Below, piece by piece: positions 54,498 to 64,000 of a stretch of DNA of 64,000 nucleotides. Both the position numbers and the translations under genes were made by a program. The notes beneath the pieces are model-generated. The model did not search any database. It saw nothing but the letters and a program-made list of their open reading frames with translations, and was not told the origin of the DNA. The stretch's first letter is position 1. Each line of letters begins with the position of its first letter. Source of the stretch: an uncultured Isosphaeraceae bacterium (GTDB lineage: Bacteria; Planctomycetota; Planctomycetia; Isosphaerales; Isosphaeraceae); NCBI GenBank assembly GCA_945957605.1, contig CAMFLR010000022.1:1-64000 (forward strand). Direction: 5' to 3'.

Positions 54498-54681
54498 TTA
54501 CAAGGTCGGAGCGGTGCCGCCAACTTGCGGTCGGGCGGGCAATTCGCTCGCAAACTCCGGCCACTCGACCTGCCAGAAGCTGAAGGCTGGTAAGAGCTTG
54601 GCTTTCCGGCGCGAGCCGGTATCGACGATCCGATCGACTCCACGACCGGCCGGGCTCGGTGTTTTTCCAGGAAAATCGTTC

Positions 54682-56487
54682 ATGGTGTTTGACCCTAAAT
54701 ATATTCGCAACTTCTCGATTGTCGCCCACATCGATCACGGCAAGAGCACGCTGGCCGACCAGTTGCTGCTCCAATCCGGCGCCATTTCTCAGCGCGAATT
54801 CCGCGAGCAGTTGCTCGATGACATGGACATCGAACGCGAGCGCGGGATCACCATCAAGGCCCGCGCGGTGGCCTTGAACTACGTCCTCGATGGCCAGACG
54901 TATGAGCTGAACCTCATCGACACCCCGGGACACGTCGACTTCCATTACGAAGTGTCGCGAAGTCTTGCGGCATGCGAAGGGGCAATCCTTCTCGTCGACG
55001 CGACCCAAGGTGTTCAGGCACAAACGGTTGCGAACGCCTATGCGGCGATCAACAACGACCTGGCGATCGTGCCGGCGTTGAACAAGATTGACATGCAGGC
55101 GGCTCGTCCGGACGAGATTCGTGAGGAAATCTACTCGACGCTGGGTCTCGACCCGAGCGAGGTGCTTGCCTGCAGCGGCAAGACGGGGCAGGGGGTGCCG
55201 GAAATCTTCAGTGCGGTGATCGACCGCATTCCGGCGCCGGCGGGTGACCCCAAGGCTCCGCTGCGATGCCTGATCTTCGACTCGAAGTTCGATGATTACG
55301 CAGGCGTCGTGATTTATATGAGAGTCGTGGACGGCTCGATCAAGGTCGGCCAGAAGATCCGCCTGATGGCGGGCGAAACCGAGCACGATGTGATCACTCT
55401 CGGCCAGTTCCGGCCGCACCAGGTTGGCGTGGATGAGTTGGGGGTGGGTCAGGTCGGTTACGTCACCGCCAACATCAAACGGCTTTCGGACGTGCGCATC
55501 GGCGATACGATCACCGAGGCTGCCAGGCCCGCGACTCAGGCGCTACCGGGTTATCAAGAACCGGCGCAAGTCGTGTTCTGCGGTCTATTTCCGGCGACGC
55601 ACACTCAGTTTGAAGATTTGCGAACGGCGCTGCAGAAGCTGTCGCTCAACGATGCGAGCTTCACGTATGAGCCGGAATCGTCCGACGCGCTCGGGTTCGG
55701 TTTCCGTTGCGGCTTCCTCGGCATGCTGCACATGGAAATCGTCCAGCAGCGGCTCGAGCGTGAGAGCAATCTCATGCTCGTGCAGACCGCCCCGAACGTG
55801 ACGTATGAGATCGTCACAAAGAAGGGCGAGACGCTGACGGTGTCGAATCCGACGCGCATTCCTGACCCGGGCGACATCGAGGAGTTCCGTGAGCCGGTTG
55901 CGAAGGTGAATTTCATTTTGCCTTCGGACAACATCGGCGCGATCATGCAGCTTTGCGAGGATCGCCGCGGTACGTATCTCAAGACGGAATACATCACGCC
56001 AACCCGCGCGATTCTGGTCTACGAATTGCCGCTGGCCGAAATGATTTATGACCTCTATGATAAGCTTAAGAGTGCGACGCGCGGTTATGGGACGATGGAT
56101 TACGAGGTGATCGGCTACCGCGCAAGCGATCTTTGCCGGCTCGACATTCTTGTCGCGGGCGAAAAGGTTGACGCGCTGTCGATCGTCGTTCACCGGGCAC
56201 ATGCGGACCGTCGCGGACGGAAACTGGTCAAGAAGCTGCGCGGCGAGATCGATCGCCACCAGTTTGAAGTGGCGATTCAGGCGGCGATCGGGACACGCGT
56301 TGTCGCTCGCGAGACGATTTCGGCGCTGCGGAAGAACGTGACCGCGAAGTGCTATGGCGGTGACATCAGTCGTAAACGCAAGTTGCTCGAGAAACAAAAA
56401 GAAGGCAAGAAGCGTATGAAGCAGGTGGGTAACGTCGAGATCTCGCAGGAGGCATTCCTGTCGGTGCTCGACGATAGCGACGAATAA
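54682..56487 (+). CDS. lepA: Elongation factor 4 (LepA) (601 aa)
   Basis: Ribosome-binding GTPase of the translational GTPase superfamily, thought to act on stalled or initiating ribosomes. Seen: G1 HIDHGKST (16-23), the switch region around RERGITIKA, G3 DTPGH, G4 NKID, and the LepA-specific C-terminal domain with NVTAKCYGGDISRKRKLL. Length matches the ~600 residues of bacterial LepA. The frame is open from 54514, but the conserved start (DPKYIRNFSIVAHIDHG) puts ATG at 54682, with AGGA (54669-54672) at 9-base spacing. It is the first gene of a row lepA, two signal peptidases, lptB; the lepA-lepB order is also found in E. coli. Confidence 0.98.
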   Translation: MVFDPKYIRNFSIVAHIDHGKSTLADQLLLQSGAISQREFREQLLDDMDIERERGITIKARAVALNYVLDGQTYELNLIDTPGHVDFHYEVSRSLAACEGAILLVDATQGVQAQTVANAYAAINNDLAIVPALNKIDMQAARPDEIREEIYSTLGLDPSEVLACSGKTGQGVPEIFSAVIDRIPAPAGDPKAPLRCLIFDSKFDDYAGVVIYMRVVDGSIKVGQKIRLMAGETEHDVITLGQFRPHQVGVDELGVGQVGYVTANIKRLSDVRIGDTITEAARPATQALPGYQEPAQVVFCGLFPATHTQFEDLRTALQKLSLNDASFTYEPESSDALGFGFRCGFLGMLHMEIVQQRLERESNLMLVQTAPNVTYEIVTKKGETLTVSNPTRIPDPGDIEEFREPVAKVNFILPSDNIGAIMQLCEDRRGTYLKTEYITPTRAILVYELPLAEMIYDLYDKLKSATRGYGTMDYEVIGYRASDLCRLDILVAGEKVDALSIVVHRAHADRRGRKLVKKLRGEIDRHQFEVAIQAAIGTRVVARETISALRKNVTAKCYGGDISRKRKLLEKQKEGKKRMKQVGNVEISQEAFLSVLDDSDE

Positions 56488-56519: not shown

Positions 56520-58070
56520 ATGAGCACGATCGATCATCTGGCCGAGTCTTCCCTGTTCCCGCCGGAGTGCGGGACGCCTCCCACCGCTGAATCGCTCCTT
56601 CCTGTCCTAACGCCAAACATTGCGAAAGTCGGCCAACCTCCGTCGCGCGACGACTACCAGGGCGCGATATTTACTCTGATCCGACAGACGGTCGAGTTTC
56701 TCATCGTCCTCTGCCTCGGGATCATGATGATCCGCACGTTCGTGGCGGAGGCGTACATCGTGCCGACGGGCTCGATGGCTCCCACGTTGCTGGGGATGCA
56801 CAAGGAGATTACCTGCTCGAACTGCGGGTACCTCTTTGTGCTGGGGGCTGATGAGCAGGGGCGATCGGGACGGGCGATCTGTCCCAACTGCGGCCAGCAC
56901 GAACGAACTGCGAGTGCGATCGTTTCCAATGGCGATCGATTGCTCGTGCAGAAATACCTGTTCGACCTGCGAAGTCCCAGGCGCTGGGAAGTCGCTGTGT
57001 TTCAGAGCCGAAATGAACCGAATCAGGCGTATGTAAAACGCGTCGTGGGACTGCCGGGCGAGTTGCTGCAGCTTCGCAGCGGCGATTTGTTCATCAATGG
57101 ACAGATCGCGCGGAAGAACATGGCAGAGTTCCGCGCGGTGCGGCAACTTGTTTACGACAATGATTTTATGCCGAAGGACGCCGATCGTTTCCCTCGGTGG
57201 GTTTATCGTCGCGGACGTGGTCGAGCGAGCGAGCCGAGCGGGTGGGAACCTGGAGGGACGGGGTTCGAGCACATTGCATCGAAACGAGATTCCGACCTGA
57301 TTGACTGGCTCGACTACCGCCACTGGGATCCGGATACCGGCCGCTACGGGCCGATTCGCGATTATTATGGCTATAACGGCGGCGAGATGCGGGGCGATCA
57401 CACGATCACCGACATGATGGTCGACTGCATGGTTGCCACGAGGGCGGAGGCGAAGAGCGTTGTCGTGCGCCTCAATACTGCGGGCGAGACGTTTTTTATC
57501 ACCTTGCCGGTTGATGGGCGTGCCAAGCCGGAAGTGCGGCGGAACGGCAAGTTGATGGAACTGGGCGATTTCGATGCGCAGTTGAGGTCATCGATGGCCG
57601 AGGCTCCGCGATACCAGCATCTTGAGGTGGCGCTGGTTGATCGTCGCGTGATGGTGATGATTGATGGCCGGCCGGCGTTCGCTCCGCTTGACTTCGAGGG
57701 GGTGATGGCAGGAAGCGCGCCGTTCGCGACTCCGGTGTCGATTGGAGTGCAGGGGGGTGGCGTAAGTCTCAAATCGGTCAAGCTTTATCGCGATGTTTAT
57801 TACACCGCTGCGCTCGCGAACACGCCGAAGCGGCCGCACGGAGTTGAGAACCCGGTTGTGCTTGGGCCGAACGAGTATTTTGTGCTGGGCGACAATAGTC
57901 CGGTCTCGAACGACTCGCGATTTTGGCCGGGGAGTCCGGTTGTGCTCCGGAGCGATTTTCTGGGCAAACCGTTCCTGGTTCATTTGCCAGGGCAACTGGT
58001 TTTGTGCCACGTGTTGGGGCGGTCGCTCGGCTGGATTCCCGACCTGAGAGAAATACGTTACATTCGGTAG
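56520..58070 (+). CDS. lepB: Type I signal peptidase with zinc-ribbon and beta-sandwich-like insertions, copy 1 (516 aa)
   Basis: Predicted inner-membrane Ser/Lys protease that removes signal peptides. Seen: one hydrophobic segment (about 58-78), the catalytic Ser box PTGSMAPT with S85, the catalytic Lys in YVKRVVGLPGE (K173), and the C-terminal box VLGDNSPVSNDSRFW (D458). Unusual are C99-x2-C102 and C121-x2-C124 directly after the Ser box, a zinc-ribbon pattern, and a ~280-residue insert between Lys and GDNS. The distal part of that insert (DRRVMVMIDG ... SIGVQGGG ... KLYRDVYYT) resembles a concanavalin/LamG-like beta sandwich. Typical enzymes are 180-330 residues. ATG 56520 lies 32 bases after lepA. 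A second copy follows. Confidence 0.9.
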   Translation: MSTIDHLAESSLFPPECGTPPTAESLLPVLTPNIAKVGQPPSRDDYQGAIFTLIRQTVEFLIVLCLGIMMIRTFVAEAYIVPTGSMAPTLLGMHKEITCSNCGYLFVLGADEQGRSGRAICPNCGQHERTASAIVSNGDRLLVQKYLFDLRSPRRWEVAVFQSRNEPNQAYVKRVVGLPGELLQLRSGDLFINGQIARKNMAEFRAVRQLVYDNDFMPKDADRFPRWVYRRGRGRASEPSGWEPGGTGFEHIASKRDSDLIDWLDYRHWDPDTGRYGPIRDYYGYNGGEMRGDHTITDMMVDCMVATRAEAKSVVVRLNTAGETFFITLPVDGRAKPEVRRNGKLMELGDFDAQLRSSMAEAPRYQHLEVALVDRRVMVMIDGRPAFAPLDFEGVMAGSAPFATPVSIGVQGGGVSLKSVKLYRDVYYTAALANTPKRPHGVENPVVLGPNEYFVLGDNSPVSNDSRFWPGSPVVLRSDFLGKPFLVHLPGQLVLCHVLGRSLGWIPDLREIRYIR

Positions 58071-58212
58071 CGAACAAGTTACGGGAGAGGCTGCGCAAAA
58101 CCACCTGGCGACCGGAGCGAATCCGGCGGTGGTCAGACGTAAGTGGTTCTCCAAATGTGGTTTAATTGAATTCTTGTTGTGGATCGATCCACCGGCCCGG
58201 GAAATTCGAGAG

Positions 58213-59964
58213 ATGAGCAAGATCGCGAAGCGTCCAAGCCCGGCGGTGAAGTCGGCTCCTGCTCCCGCTGAAAAAACCACAGAGGAAAAAGCCGCCGAGA
58301 AGCCGAAGGAGACGTTTCGCGACATGGTCGACCAGATCGCAGTCGCGATCATCCTGGCGATTTTGATCCGCGGTTTTGACGCTGAAGCGTTCGTGATTCC
58401 CACTGGCTCGATGGCCCCGACCTTGAAGGGGCGGCACAAGGAAATTACGTGCCCGCAGTGCTCGCATGTTTATACGGTGAACTCGTCTGACGATGCTGAA
58501 GCATATTTGATTCGCCGTCCCGAAGAGCGGAAGGAAGAGGCGGCGATTTGCGATAATTGCCGCTATCTTACGCCGATTGGCTTCGAGCCCAGCTTCAAGG
58601 GCGACCGCATTCTCGTCATGAAGTTTCCGTACGAGTTCCCCACGCTCCCAGGCGCAGGCGGGCCAAACCGCTGGGATGTGGTGGTGTTCCACTATCCCGA
58701 AAAGCCGGCTGAGACCAATTACATCAAGCGTTTGGTGGGGATGCCCGACGAAGATCTCCGCATCCAGCGCGGTAATGTTTGGATCCGTCCGGCTGGCTCC
58801 AACGATGCATTCCGAATCGCCCGCAAGCCGCTTTCGCGCCAGCGGGCGATGGCGATCATGGTTAACGATGATTCGCATCGCCCGGCCCTGCTGAAAGGTA
58901 AGCCGGAATGGGCACGCTGGAAGACAGCGAAGGGGTTCAGCGAGAAATCGGAAGGGACGTTCGTCGTTGAAGGCGACGGCGAATTGCGCTACTCGAATCT
59001 CATTCCTGACCCCGAGCAGTGGGCGGCGATCGCCCGGCAGACCTCGCTACCCCGCCCGCCTCGTGCGACGCTCATTACCGACTTCTATTCGTACAACTCG
59101 AACACGATTAACGATCGCAGAGACCCGACCGTCGCGTGGGAGCAGACCGACTGGGTCGGCGACCTGATGGTCAACATGGATCTCAAGGTCGAGAAGAACG
59201 AAGGGACGGTCACGCTCGAACTTGTGGAAGCGGGCGTGCAGAATCGTTGCGAGATCGACCTCAAAACTGGCATGGCCGTGATGTTCCACGGTGATGCCAA
59301 GCTGGGTGAAGCCCAAACGCGGATGACTTCACGCGGGTGGTATGCACTCGAATTCGCCAACATCGACGATCGCCTGACGCTGACGGTCGACGGCGCGACG
59401 CCATTTGGCGACGGGCTCGAGTACATCGATGCGCCGGGGGCTGCGTCGGCACCGACGGCTGAGGATCTTGCACCCGTCGCGGTGACGAGCCGTGGGGCTG
59501 CGGTGCAGGTGAGCGGCCTTGTCCTGAAACGCGATATCTACTATACACTTTACCCCAGCCGGCCCGATTGCCCGATTTCGGTGCAGCCGACCTTTGGGTC
59601 GGAGGCGCGTTCTCCGTTCTGGAAGGTCGTACAGCAGTTCGACATTCTTTCCGATCCGGCGCGATTCGGACCGCTGTTTGCCAACGTCGAAGCGAGTGAA
59701 CCATACACGATTCGGCCCGACCATTTCATGATGATGGGCGACAACAGCCCACGAAGCGCCGACAGCCGCGCGTGGGGACGTGGAGATATGAGCTGGGATC
59801 CCGACGATCGGTCGCGCTGGGAGGTGCCAAGGCCGCTTTTGATTGGCCGGGCGTTCTTCGTGTACTGGCCGCACGGCGTGCCGTTCTTCCCAAAGATTCC
59901 GCTCTCGCAGGATTTCTTGATTCCGTTCCGCCCTTATTTTGAGCGGATGAAACCGATTCGCTAA
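58213..59964 (+). CDS. lepB: Type I signal peptidase with zinc-ribbon and beta-sandwich-like insertions, copy 2 (583 aa)
   Basis: Paralogue of the preceding gene, same predicted activity. Seen: an Ala/Lys/Glu/Pro-rich cytoplasmic N-terminus, a hydrophobic segment (about 41-54), the Ser box PTGSMAPT with S66, cysteine pairs C80/C83 and C113/C116 just after it, K172 in YIKRLVGMP, and a ~335-residue insert. The insert contains a beta-rich segment (RLTLTVDGATPFGDG ... VLKRDIYYT). MMGDNSPRSADSRAW (D510) follows. The frame is open from 58129, but ATG 58213 is the better start. The copies differ clearly in sequence, so the duplication is old and both have been kept. The gap to copy 1 is 142 bases and to lptB 73 bases. 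Confidence 0.9.
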   Translation: MSKIAKRPSPAVKSAPAPAEKTTEEKAAEKPKETFRDMVDQIAVAIILAILIRGFDAEAFVIPTGSMAPTLKGRHKEITCPQCSHVYTVNSSDDAEAYLIRRPEERKEEAAICDNCRYLTPIGFEPSFKGDRILVMKFPYEFPTLPGAGGPNRWDVVVFHYPEKPAETNYIKRLVGMPDEDLRIQRGNVWIRPAGSNDAFRIARKPLSRQRAMAIMVNDDSHRPALLKGKPEWARWKTAKGFSEKSEGTFVVEGDGELRYSNLIPDPEQWAAIARQTSLPRPPRATLITDFYSYNSNTINDRRDPTVAWEQTDWVGDLMVNMDLKVEKNEGTVTLELVEAGVQNRCEIDLKTGMAVMFHGDAKLGEAQTRMTSRGWYALEFANIDDRLTLTVDGATPFGDGLEYIDAPGAASAPTAEDLAPVAVTSRGAAVQVSGLVLKRDIYYTLYPSRPDCPISVQPTFGSEARSPFWKVVQQFDILSDPARFGPLFANVEASEPYTIRPDHFMMMGDNSPRSADSRAWGRGDMSWDPDDRSRWEVPRPLLIGRAFFVYWPHGVPFFPKIPLSQDFLIPFRPYFERMKPIR

Positions 59965-60037: not shown

Positions 60038-61012
60038 ATGGCCTTGCTCGAAGTCAACGATCTCAAGAAGTGGTACGGCAAGCGCCAGGTCGTCAACGGC
60101 GTGAGCTTCGAGGTGAATCAGGGCGAGGTCGTGGGCCTGCTCGGCCCGAACGGGGCCGGTAAAACGACGAGCTTCCGTATGACGATCGGCCTGATCGACG
60201 CCGACGGCGGCTCCGTGTTTTTCGACGGCACTGAAGTGACAAAGCTGCCGATGTACCAGCGTGCCCGCTCCGGCATGGGCTACCTTGCGCAGGATTCGAG
60301 CGTTTTCAAGCAGCTATCGGTTGAAGACAACTTGATGGCCATTCTGGAAACGCGTCCCCTCAATCGCAAGCAGCGCCGCGAGCGTCAGGACGAGTTGCTC
60401 AACCAGTTTGGTTTGACGCACATTCGCCGGACGAAGGCGAACCGCGTGTCTGGCGGTGAACGACGTCGTCTGGAAATTGCCCGCTCGCTCATCACCGAGC
60501 CGAAGCTGATTTTGCTCGATGAGCCGTTCGCGGGCATCGACCCCAAGACGGTCGCCGAAATTCAGGACCAGATCCGTGGACTCGTCGAACAGCACGACCT
60601 CGGGATCTTGCTGACCGACCACCAGTTCCGCGAAACGCTCGAAGTGACCGACCGCTGCTATTTGATTCGTGAAGGGCGAGTGTTCGCGTACGGCAACCGG
60701 CAGCAGATCGTCAATAATCCTGACGTGCGGCGGTATTACATCGGCGAGCGGTTCGACGTCGGCAACTTGCTCGACGAGCCATCGCGGCCCAAGGCGAGCT
60801 TGCACGACGCGAGCAGCACGTCGCAGTCAAACGAGGTTGTCATCGATCACGTCGACGACCAGCCGGCGCCGGGCGACGCCTCGCGGCGTTACCATGCGCC
60901 CCACCCGTCGGATGAGCACCCGCCGCATGGTCCGCGCGAAGGACGGCCGACCGATGGTGAGTCGAAGGGGCCGGATGGTCCGATGATTCATCCGCGCGGG
61001 CCTTCGGTTTGA
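60038..61012 (+). CDS. lptB: LPS export-type ABC transporter ATPase LptB with long C-terminal tail (324 aa)
   Basis: Predicted cytoplasmic ATPase that powers transport of lipopolysaccharide (or a similar lipid) to the outer membrane with LptF/G/C. Seen: Walker A GPNGAGKTT (36-44), Q-loop LAQD, signature VSGGERRR, Walker B LILLDEPFAGID and the H-loop LLTDHQ, in the order typical of LptB. The core ends near 245; the remaining ~80 residues are a disordered Pro/His/Asp-rich tail absent from usual ~240-residue LptB. The ribosome site is excellent: AAGGAGGA (60023-60030) with 7-base spacing. It is the last gene of the lepA-lepB-lepB row. No lptA/C/F/G is present in the window. Confidence 0.92.
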   Translation: MALLEVNDLKKWYGKRQVVNGVSFEVNQGEVVGLLGPNGAGKTTSFRMTIGLIDADGGSVFFDGTEVTKLPMYQRARSGMGYLAQDSSVFKQLSVEDNLMAILETRPLNRKQRRERQDELLNQFGLTHIRRTKANRVSGGERRRLEIARSLITEPKLILLDEPFAGIDPKTVAEIQDQIRGLVEQHDLGILLTDHQFRETLEVTDRCYLIREGRVFAYGNRQQIVNNPDVRRYYIGERFDVGNLLDEPSRPKASLHDASSTSQSNEVVIDHVDDQPAPGDASRRYHAPHPSDEHPPHGPREGRPTDGESKGPDGPMIHPRGPSV

Positions 61013-62332: not shown

Positions 62333-64000
62333 TCAAAGACTCTTCAAATACGCAACCAAATCATCAACCTCAGCCGGCGAAAGTGATGTGCCGCCGAGTT
62401 CTTCTGGGCTGTGCGGACCAGTAATCACGTCTTTGAGTGTTTTTGCTCGGCCGTCGTGCAGATACGGATCTTTGTCGTAGACGCCGCGGAGCGACGGCGG
62501 GTTGTAACCGCGGTAGACGTCGCGACGTTCTTCGAGGCCGACTTCGTGAATCTTGCCGTCCGTGAACTCGGAGCCAGAGTGGCACTTCACGCAGGTGGCT
62601 TTTGTCGAGCGGAAGATCGTTTCTCCACGACGCGCTGCGGGTGAAAGGCCGCCATCGTGGTCGCGATTCGGGTTACGCGGGTAGTCGAGTGTTTCGAGGA
62701 ACGCGATTACGGCCTTCGATTCGTCGACGGTTGGCCGCTTGCCTTGCATGCTCTTGGTGAACGACTCGACGGTGGCGTCTTGCAGGCTGTTTTGCCAGCC
62801 GTGCCAGGTCCAGGGGCCGGTTTTGGCGACGCGCCGGAGCGTTGGTACTTTCTTTCGGCTGTACTGGTGGGCGGTGCTGTAATCGTGCCAGCCGTCGTTC
62901 ATGGTGTCGAAGTCGAGACCGGCTGTGTGGCCATCGCCGTGGCAGGTGTTGCAGCTATACCACTGGTTCGACGAACGGGTGGCATCGTGGAAAAGGATTT
63001 CGCCTTTGCGTGCCAGGCTTGGCGTCGCGGGGCCGCCGAGCGAAATCGTTCGCACAACTTTGCCGCTGTCGAAGTCAATCGCTTGAATTGAATTATCGAG
63101 ATAATTGGCGGCGTAAATGGTTTTGTTGTCGGGAGCGAAGGCCAATTCGGTCGGCCGGCCGCCAACTTCGGTGCGACGGAATCGTCCATCGTTCTTGAGC
63201 AGCTCTTGCGGAATCAGGTCGCGGCCTACGCGTTCGCGCCAGGGGAGCGGCTCGTCTTTTACGCTCAAAAGCAGAAGTTCATGAGTGCCGCCAGCGCTGA
63301 GGGCGAGCTTCGCGCCGTCGGTGCTCATGGCGACGCCGTAAACGTCTCCCACGGCCTTGCCCTTGGGGTCGAGCGAGAGCACGTCAACTGGCTCGCCGCC
63401 TGCGACTTTCACACGCGAAAGCCGCTGACCCAGAACCCAGCCGAGGTCGATGTTGTTCGCGGTCGTTGCCATACCGCGATTCTGCATGTTGGCGACGTAT
63501 GCGTATTTGCCGTCGTGATCGAAAGTGACCTGGCGCAAGTTTGTGCCGGCGACGGAGATCGTCCGTTCGACCTTCCAGGCGATGCGATCGATGATCGAAA
63601 TCGACTCGGCACGTACGTTACCAACGGCTAGCTTCAACCCGTCGCGCGAGATTGCCAGTCCACGCGGTTCGCGACCGACTTCGAGCCGTCCCGTCACATT
63701 GCGTTCGGCAAGGTCGACTCGGACAACTTCGTTGGTCGACCCAAGGGCAGCGTAGGCGAACTTGCCGTCGGGCGAGAGTACCACGCCGCGCGGTTCGGCC
63801 CCGACTGCGACTCGTCCGGCGACGCTGAGTTTATCGCTCTTAATGTCGAGAATCGCCAGATCGTAGCCGTACCAGTGCGTGACGACCGCTCGCTTGCCGT
63901 CTCGCGCGAGCGCGACTCCCGCAGGCTTTTCGCCGGTGGGAATCACGCTCAAAATCTTGCCGGCCTGGGGATCGACGAGGGCGACCGTGCCGTTGCCGCT
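62333..64000 (-). CDS. YVTN beta-propeller / cytochrome c fusion protein, N-terminus beyond window
   Basis: Predicted exported cytochrome with a propeller domain. The visible 555 residues begin in the middle of the gene: the frame is open to the window edge (GTVALVDPQAG precedes the first internal TTG). Residues up to about 330 are seven-bladed YVTN-type repeats (e.g. AEPRGVVLSPDGKFAYAALG). Two heme motifs follow, CNTCHGDGH and CVKCHSGSE, with PSLRGVYDKDPYLHDGRA and AEVDDLVAYLKSL near the end, as in di-heme peroxidase-like cytochromes. The stop is at 62333-62335. The 142-aa gene follows on the same strand, with its GTG 59 bases downstream. Confidence 0.9.
   Translation of the reverse strand, partial: SGNGTVALVDPQAGKILSVIPTGEKPAGVALARDGKRAVVTHWYGYDLAILDIKSDKLSVAGRVAVGAEPRGVVLSPDGKFAYAALGSTNEVVRVDLAERNVTGRLEVGREPRGLAISRDGLKLAVGNVRAESISIIDRIAWKVERTISVAGTNLRQVTFDHDGKYAYVANMQNRGMATTANNIDLGWVLGQRLSRVKVAGGEPVDVLSLDPKGKAVGDVYGVAMSTDGAKLALSAGGTHELLLLSVKDEPLPWRERVGRDLIPQELLKNDGRFRRTEVGGRPTELAFAPDNKTIYAANYLDNSIQAIDFDSGKVVRTISLGGPATPSLARKGEILFHDATRSSNQWYSCNTCHGDGHTAGLDFDTMNDGWHDYSTAHQYSRKKVPTLRRVAKTGPWTWHGWQNSLQDATVESFTKSMQGKRPTVDESKAVIAFLETLDYPRNPNRDHDGGLSPAARRGETIFRSTKATCVKCHSGSEFTDGKIHEVGLEERRDVYRGYNPPSLRGVYDKDPYLHDGRAKTLKDVITGPHSPEELGGTSLSPAEVDDLVAYLKSL

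Follow-up and report, generated by a model that had tools for sequence, protein, structure and literature searches.

A tandem pair of Planctomycetota type I signal peptidases carrying a zinc-ribbon-like insert and a lectin-like domain

The locus and the signal peptidase core

We analyzed a window of 64,000 nucleotides (the whole stretch of DNA considered here) from a planctomycete with a genome of 8.8 Mb (G000). Two adjacent genes, sip1 and sip2, were found between lepA and an lptB-like gene:

54514–56487, forward strand: open reading frame of lepA (elongation factor 4), the upstream partner of sip1, beginning at GTG
56520–58070, forward strand: sip1, type I signal peptidase of 516 amino acids with an ATG start (PF10502, E = 2.2e-27; TIGR02227, E = 1.7e-27)
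58213–59964, forward strand: sip2, type I signal peptidase of 583 amino acids (PF10502, E = 1e-23; TIGR02227, E = 8.7e-23)
60038–61012, forward strand: open reading frame of an lptB-like ABC ATPase, the downstream partner

The actual start of lepA is probably located further inside its reading frame than the GTG. For sip2, the ATG at 58213 was the best start and was preferred over the GTG at 58129, with which the mechanically called frame opens. The name lptB is putative and was judged from the sequence. An open reading frame on the reverse strand (62333–63952) is rich in repeats towards its N-terminus, contains CxxCH haem motifs, and looks like a beta-propeller plus cytochrome-peroxidase-like protein.

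The gene order lepA-sip(-sip)-lptB was repeated throughout Planctomycetota; thus, sip1 and sip2 represent the housekeeping LepB proteins. At many loci of adequate length, a lepA gene with 55–90% identity adjoined sip, and an lptB-like gene stood beside sip at most loci of adequate length across the phylum.

The first-pass annotation of this DNA had described two adjacent signal peptidases, and both family models agree: PF10502 gave 96.5 bits for sip1 and 84.6 bits for sip2 (cut-off 22.9), and the NCBIfam model TIGR02227 gave 96.3 and 81.0 bits, respectively (cut-off 47). The two proteins were 28% identical over approximately 500 aligned amino acids. The following elements of the core were located:

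56646–56744, forward strand: long N-terminal helix of sip1, residues 43–75 in the AlphaFold model, with the hydrophobic stretch IRQTVEFLIVLCLGIMMIRTF
56772–56774, forward strand: nucleophile Ser85 of sip1 (PTGSMAP), invariant in A1–A3
57036–57038, forward strand: general base Lys173 of sip1 (YVKR), invariant
57888–57899, forward strand: GDNS box of sip1, residues 457–460, with GDN invariant
58408–58410, forward strand: nucleophile Ser66 of sip2 (PTGSMAP), invariant in A4
58726–58728, forward strand: general base Lys172 of sip2 (YIKR), invariant in A4
59737–59748, forward strand: GDNS box of sip2, residues 509–512, with GDN invariant in A4

Thus, the catalytic residues and the GDNS boxes are present at the positions originally assigned, and the Ser, Lys, and GDN box were invariant throughout A3 and A4. 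The possibility that one copy is a pseudogene or a decaying duplicate was rejected: all catalytic boxes are kept in both copies, and sip1 orthologs within the family were 41–69% identical to the sip1 of the window. In the sip1-type enzymes of one part of the class, the nucleophile is preceded by I-S-T-G-S-M instead of I-P-T-G-S-M, a replacement of Pro by Ser (L077, L078, L100, L111, L114–L116, L126, L127, L134, L140, L169, and L179).

The AlphaFold models had a mean pLDDT of 87.9 for sip1 and 85.3 for sip2. Residues 74–516 of the sip1 model superimposed on E. coli SPase I (3s04) with Z 14.1 and 2.6 Å over 158 aligned residues; residues 54–583 of the sip2 model gave Z 13.9. In a Foldseek search with the sip1 model, E. 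coli SPase I was the top-ranked match. Sip1 and sip2 are probably active and cleave Sec signal peptides via the usual Ser/Lys mechanism, and helix 43–75 of sip1 presumably serves as a single membrane anchor.

Two other PF10502-related loci were noted in the genome. A compact signal peptidase without either of the inserts described below (L001, contig 3, 608781–609248) is encoded alongside the tandem pair and is flanked by thiazole-synthase-like and helicase-like genes. A diverged PF10502 match (L004, contig 8, 125899–126234), in which both the Ser box and the Lys box are not visible, is possibly a catalytically dead membrane protein.

The four-cysteine insert and the jelly-roll domain

Both proteins carry two regions additional to the signal peptidase core:

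56799–56909, forward strand: zinc-ribbon-like insert of sip1, residues 94–130, with invariant C99/C102/C121/C124 and similarity to zinc-ribbon profiles
58435–58575, forward strand: zinc-ribbon-like insert of sip2, residues 75–121, with C80/C83/C113/C116, nearly invariant in A4
57132–57800, forward strand: lectin-like (ConA/galectin/CBM66-type) jelly-roll of sip1, approximately residues 205–427 (VIA-align Z 12–13.7, model residues 203–428)
58849–59541, forward strand: lectin-like jelly-roll of sip2, approximately residues 213–443 (pLDDT mostly 94–98; VIA-align Z up to 14.9)

The C-x2-C…C-x2-C pattern, reported at first pass as lying a few residues after the Ser box, begins in both proteins exactly 12 residues past Ser-Met. 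The loop was surveyed in the first set of loci, which yielded 172 distinct signal peptidases: 169 with a long loop and 3 with a short one. Both CxxC pairs were present in 155 of these 169 distinct long-loop relatives from Planctomycetota, the first pair always at the same offset of 12 residues after Ser-Met and the spacer between the pairs being variable (mostly 18–52 residues). The remaining 14 long loops comprised 12 without Cys, one with a single Cys, and one with three. In 27 of 27 sip1 orthologs C99, C102, C121, and C124 were invariant at a mean column identity of 47%, the opposite of the non-conservation in close relatives that had been named as grounds for refutation. That the insert is zinc-ribbon-like and functional is supported by the fixed position of the CPxCG knuckles, by weak but consistent zinc-ribbon profile matches, by confidently modelled hairpins, and by the near all-or-none loss of Cys, as described below. 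Chance clustering of Cys was ruled out by the invariance among orthologs, by the 155 two-paired long loops, and by shuffling: among 20,000 shuffles of each whole protein, two CxxC pairs 10–60 residues apart appeared in 12 (sip1) and 2 (sip2), odds that leave aside the fact that the pairs occupy the same position in the two copies and in their relatives.

The likeness to zinc ribbons was seen at several levels. The knuckles are of the CPxCG type; across the 155 two-pair loops, the second one carries Pro 131 times and Asn 119 times. Among 31 diverse inserts, 20 matched Zn_ribbon_3 and 19 matched Zn_ribbon_4 at E < 0.05, under the curated cut-offs; the best score of the sip1 insert against Zn_ribbon_3 was 23.2 bits, below the cut-off of 27. 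Sub-threshold Pfam scores are common among short zinc ribbons. A profile built from the 31 inserts and searched against the PDB gave weak E-values to small zinc-binding proteins, among them bL33 and rubredoxins. Both AlphaFold models contain strand-knuckle-strand hairpins at the insert, with pLDDT mostly above 90: in sip1 (block means 90–96), strands 94–98 and 105–109 flank the first knuckle, and in sip2, strands 75–79, 86–90, 108–112, and 119–121 lie around the knuckles. Thus, the inserts resemble zinc ribbons, and a small loop held by zinc next to the active site is probable; the four Cys would lie close together in space with zinc as their presumed ligand. By homology, the insert should be located on the extracytoplasmic side.

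The Lys-to-GDN interval of both proteins holds approximately 220 additional residues, a region absent from the first-pass annotation. Their models gave Z values of up to 13.7 (sip1) and 14.9 (sip2) against lectin-like folds. A jelly-roll profile built from ribbon-bearing relatives detected the homologous region (E < 1e-5) in 169 of 169 test proteins (119 with the ribbon, 14 with a long Cys-free loop, and 36 with a short loop). Since proteins devoid of the ribbon are included, the jelly-roll is spread more widely in the phylum than the ribbon. The modelled fold suggests that this domain may bind carbohydrates. It would substitute for domain II of the E. coli enzyme, because both lie between the same two boxes.

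Distribution, paralogy and loss of the cysteines

The 85 parsed genomes, drawn from the whole phylum, included 43 with the ribbon, 9 with only long Cys-free loops, and 33 with only short loops; since the matches used were those that scored best against sip2, the proportion with a ribbon is probably too high. A lineage-specific oddity was thereby ruled out: the ribbon is widespread, though patchy, in Planctomycetota. The insert was absent from plasmid signal peptidases of Alpha- and Gammaproteobacteria and of Cyanobacteria, which had approximately 30–45 residues fewer than sip1 across the loop.

In some lineages, loops of approximately 84–118 residues with 8 Cys are candidates for a double ribbon. 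Loops of about 84 residues with four CxxC pairs (L087, L099, L202, L204, L207, L208, L214, and L219) apparently represent two tandem ribbons past the catalytic Ser. The ribbon was also present in a record titled Kuenenia stuttgartiensis (L132), a label of a metagenome-assembled genome, from which no claim is made for anammox bacteria. Orthologs of sip1 formed one well supported clade, separate from the sip2-type sequences; the duplication is therefore old.

Loss of Cys from long loops was nearly all-or-none: 12 of the 14 Cys-losing loops had no Cys at all, and a further set added three more Cys-free loops. This is expected for a single four-Cys metal site; independent loss would make forms with one to three Cys far commoner than forms with none, the opposite of what was observed. 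The Cys-free loops retained the flanking residues of the ribbon, reading SPVNGYKWAVGPW and LDEETGYEYHVGASEEV where relatives read CPxCGYxFxVG. In two genomes, each rated 100% complete (G041 and G072), every PF10502 match fell in one Cys-free gene.

A quick tree, for which the insert columns were left out, had many forks open and came with a long-branch warning. On it, long loops with Cys alternated with the other long loops at least 8 times, and the starred branches required the Cys-free label to change at least 5 times; these counts are approximate because one or two parsing artefacts occur among the tree labels (L173 and L215). The alternation indicates that Cys loss was not one event.

Proposed explanation, alternatives and related systems

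The explanation that we consider fairly probable combines a duplicated housekeeping LepB, one structural Zn2+ that staples an accessory ribbon lobe without acting as a switch, and a nested jelly-roll. Sip1 and sip2 would be tandem-duplicated versions of the type I signal peptidase of the phylum, with the insert placed in the loop from the Ser box to the GDRxLV strand, which spans few residues in E. coli. One Zn2+ bound to four Cys would hold a small beta-hairpin module together and most likely let a stable accessory lobe sit next to the active site and the side facing the membrane; from there it could influence how substrates bind or the docking to the membrane or the translocon. The ConA/lectin-like jelly-roll would be a second nested module, occupying the Lys-to-GDN interval, which in E. 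coli contains domain II. We infer an accessory role for both.

The first-pass annotation had suggested that the active site is perhaps controlled by metal or by redox state: oxidation or metal loss would reshape the loop by the catalytic Ser and stop cleavage. The loop does start 2 residues past Ser, the four Cys are invariant in many lineages, and redox-controlled zinc sites have a precedent in Hsp33 (PMC3584216). Against this, all four Cys were lost repeatedly with the loop retained, a Cys-free enzyme was the only SPase I detected in genomes rated complete, and short-loop lineages without the module exist. Metal thus cannot be a requirement for catalysis in the family taken as a whole or for its essential function, so structural zinc is preferred and the loop is regarded as the functional part. 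Another kind of signal peptidase, the type IV prepilin peptidase PilD, has a zinc-holding CxxC-x21-CxxC domain, and the enzyme still cleaves once the zinc is removed (PMC3584216). Like the sip proteins, PilD cuts signal peptides and has a module absent in some family members; it is, however, an unrelated aspartic protease whose module lies in the cytoplasm and is required for methylation rather than for cleavage (PMC3584216). PilD is the nearest functional parallel to the sip ribbon. The near all-or-none loss and the persisting loop favour a structural zinc staple over a metal- or redox-dependent catalytic switch, which we consider quite unlikely. For plant Plsp1, a redox lead followed in the literature, nothing usable was found.

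A metal-free loop, steadied in the periplasm by two CxxC bridges or by one cross-linked pair, also appears unlikely, if slightly less so. It retains some probability: an insert on the predicted extracytoplasmic side would expose four free Cys to possible oxidation, and the staple is replaceable, as the Cys-free lineages show. Yet the CPxCG knuckles and the Pfam and PDB similarities point to zinc ribbons, and independent disulfides predict one-pair intermediates, whereas no long single-module loop was seen in which a single pair was intact and all other Cys were missing. Docking is a tentative possibility of higher standing: the ribbon or the lectin-like domain may bind the translocon, the neighbouring LPS export machinery, or glycans, the two enzymes serving separate substrate sets. 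The ancient duplication with sip1 in its own well supported clade, the phylum-wide linkage to lptB, the lectin-like fold, and the tandem double ribbons of some lineages are in line with it; a common fold, however, proves no function, and docking is compatible with, not opposed to, the structural staple. The broader version, in which ribbon and lectin-like domain sense or dock glycan/LPS or the translocon and tie cleavage to the state of the envelope while the paralogs split the cargo, is very improbable.

With LepB/SPase I (MEROPS S26A, PF10502, TIGR02227; E. coli 1b12/3s04), sip1 and sip2 have in common the Ser/Lys dyad, the GDN box, the single N-terminal anchor, the core fold (Z 13.9–14.1), and the lepA-lepB gene order. 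Unlike E. coli LepB, they have a ribbon inserted behind the Ser box and a ConA-like jelly-roll at the place of domain II, are duplicated in tandem, and are followed by lptB. Zinc-ribbon families (Zn_ribbon_3/4, DZR, bL33, and rubredoxin knuckles) likewise have two CPxCG-type knuckles, each with a beta-strand after it, and a variable spacer; the sip ribbon differs from them in being nested in a protease, predicted to be extracytoplasmic, sub-threshold in score, and able to drop all Cys yet persist. With the ConA-like lectin, CBM66, and ERGIC-53 carbohydrate recognition domains, the sip jelly-roll has the fold in common (Z 12–15 over approximately 145–180 residues) at 6–14% identity, a comparison by fold alone; the sip domain is nested in a signal peptidase.

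In a survey of anammox bacteria (Kuenenia), the Sec components were described as canonical except TatC (PMC2881027). For planctomycete SPases, searches of the open-access literature (subscription papers were outside the scope) found neither a ribbon nor a lectin-like insert described, and the family databases describe neither extra module for signal peptidases. Therefore, an SPase I variant with two extra modules, broadly distributed in Planctomycetota, is apparently undescribed; under the annotation "signal peptidase I, canonical", both modules go unnoticed.

Signal peptidase I is a core enzyme of protein secretion and is targeted by antibiotics (arylomycins). In a whole phylum whose cell plan is unusual, the SPase I is approximately twice as long as usual and bears two additional modules, whose functions we infer. 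Lineages that have naturally lost, gained, or doubled the ribbon offer ready-made experiments on the role of the module.
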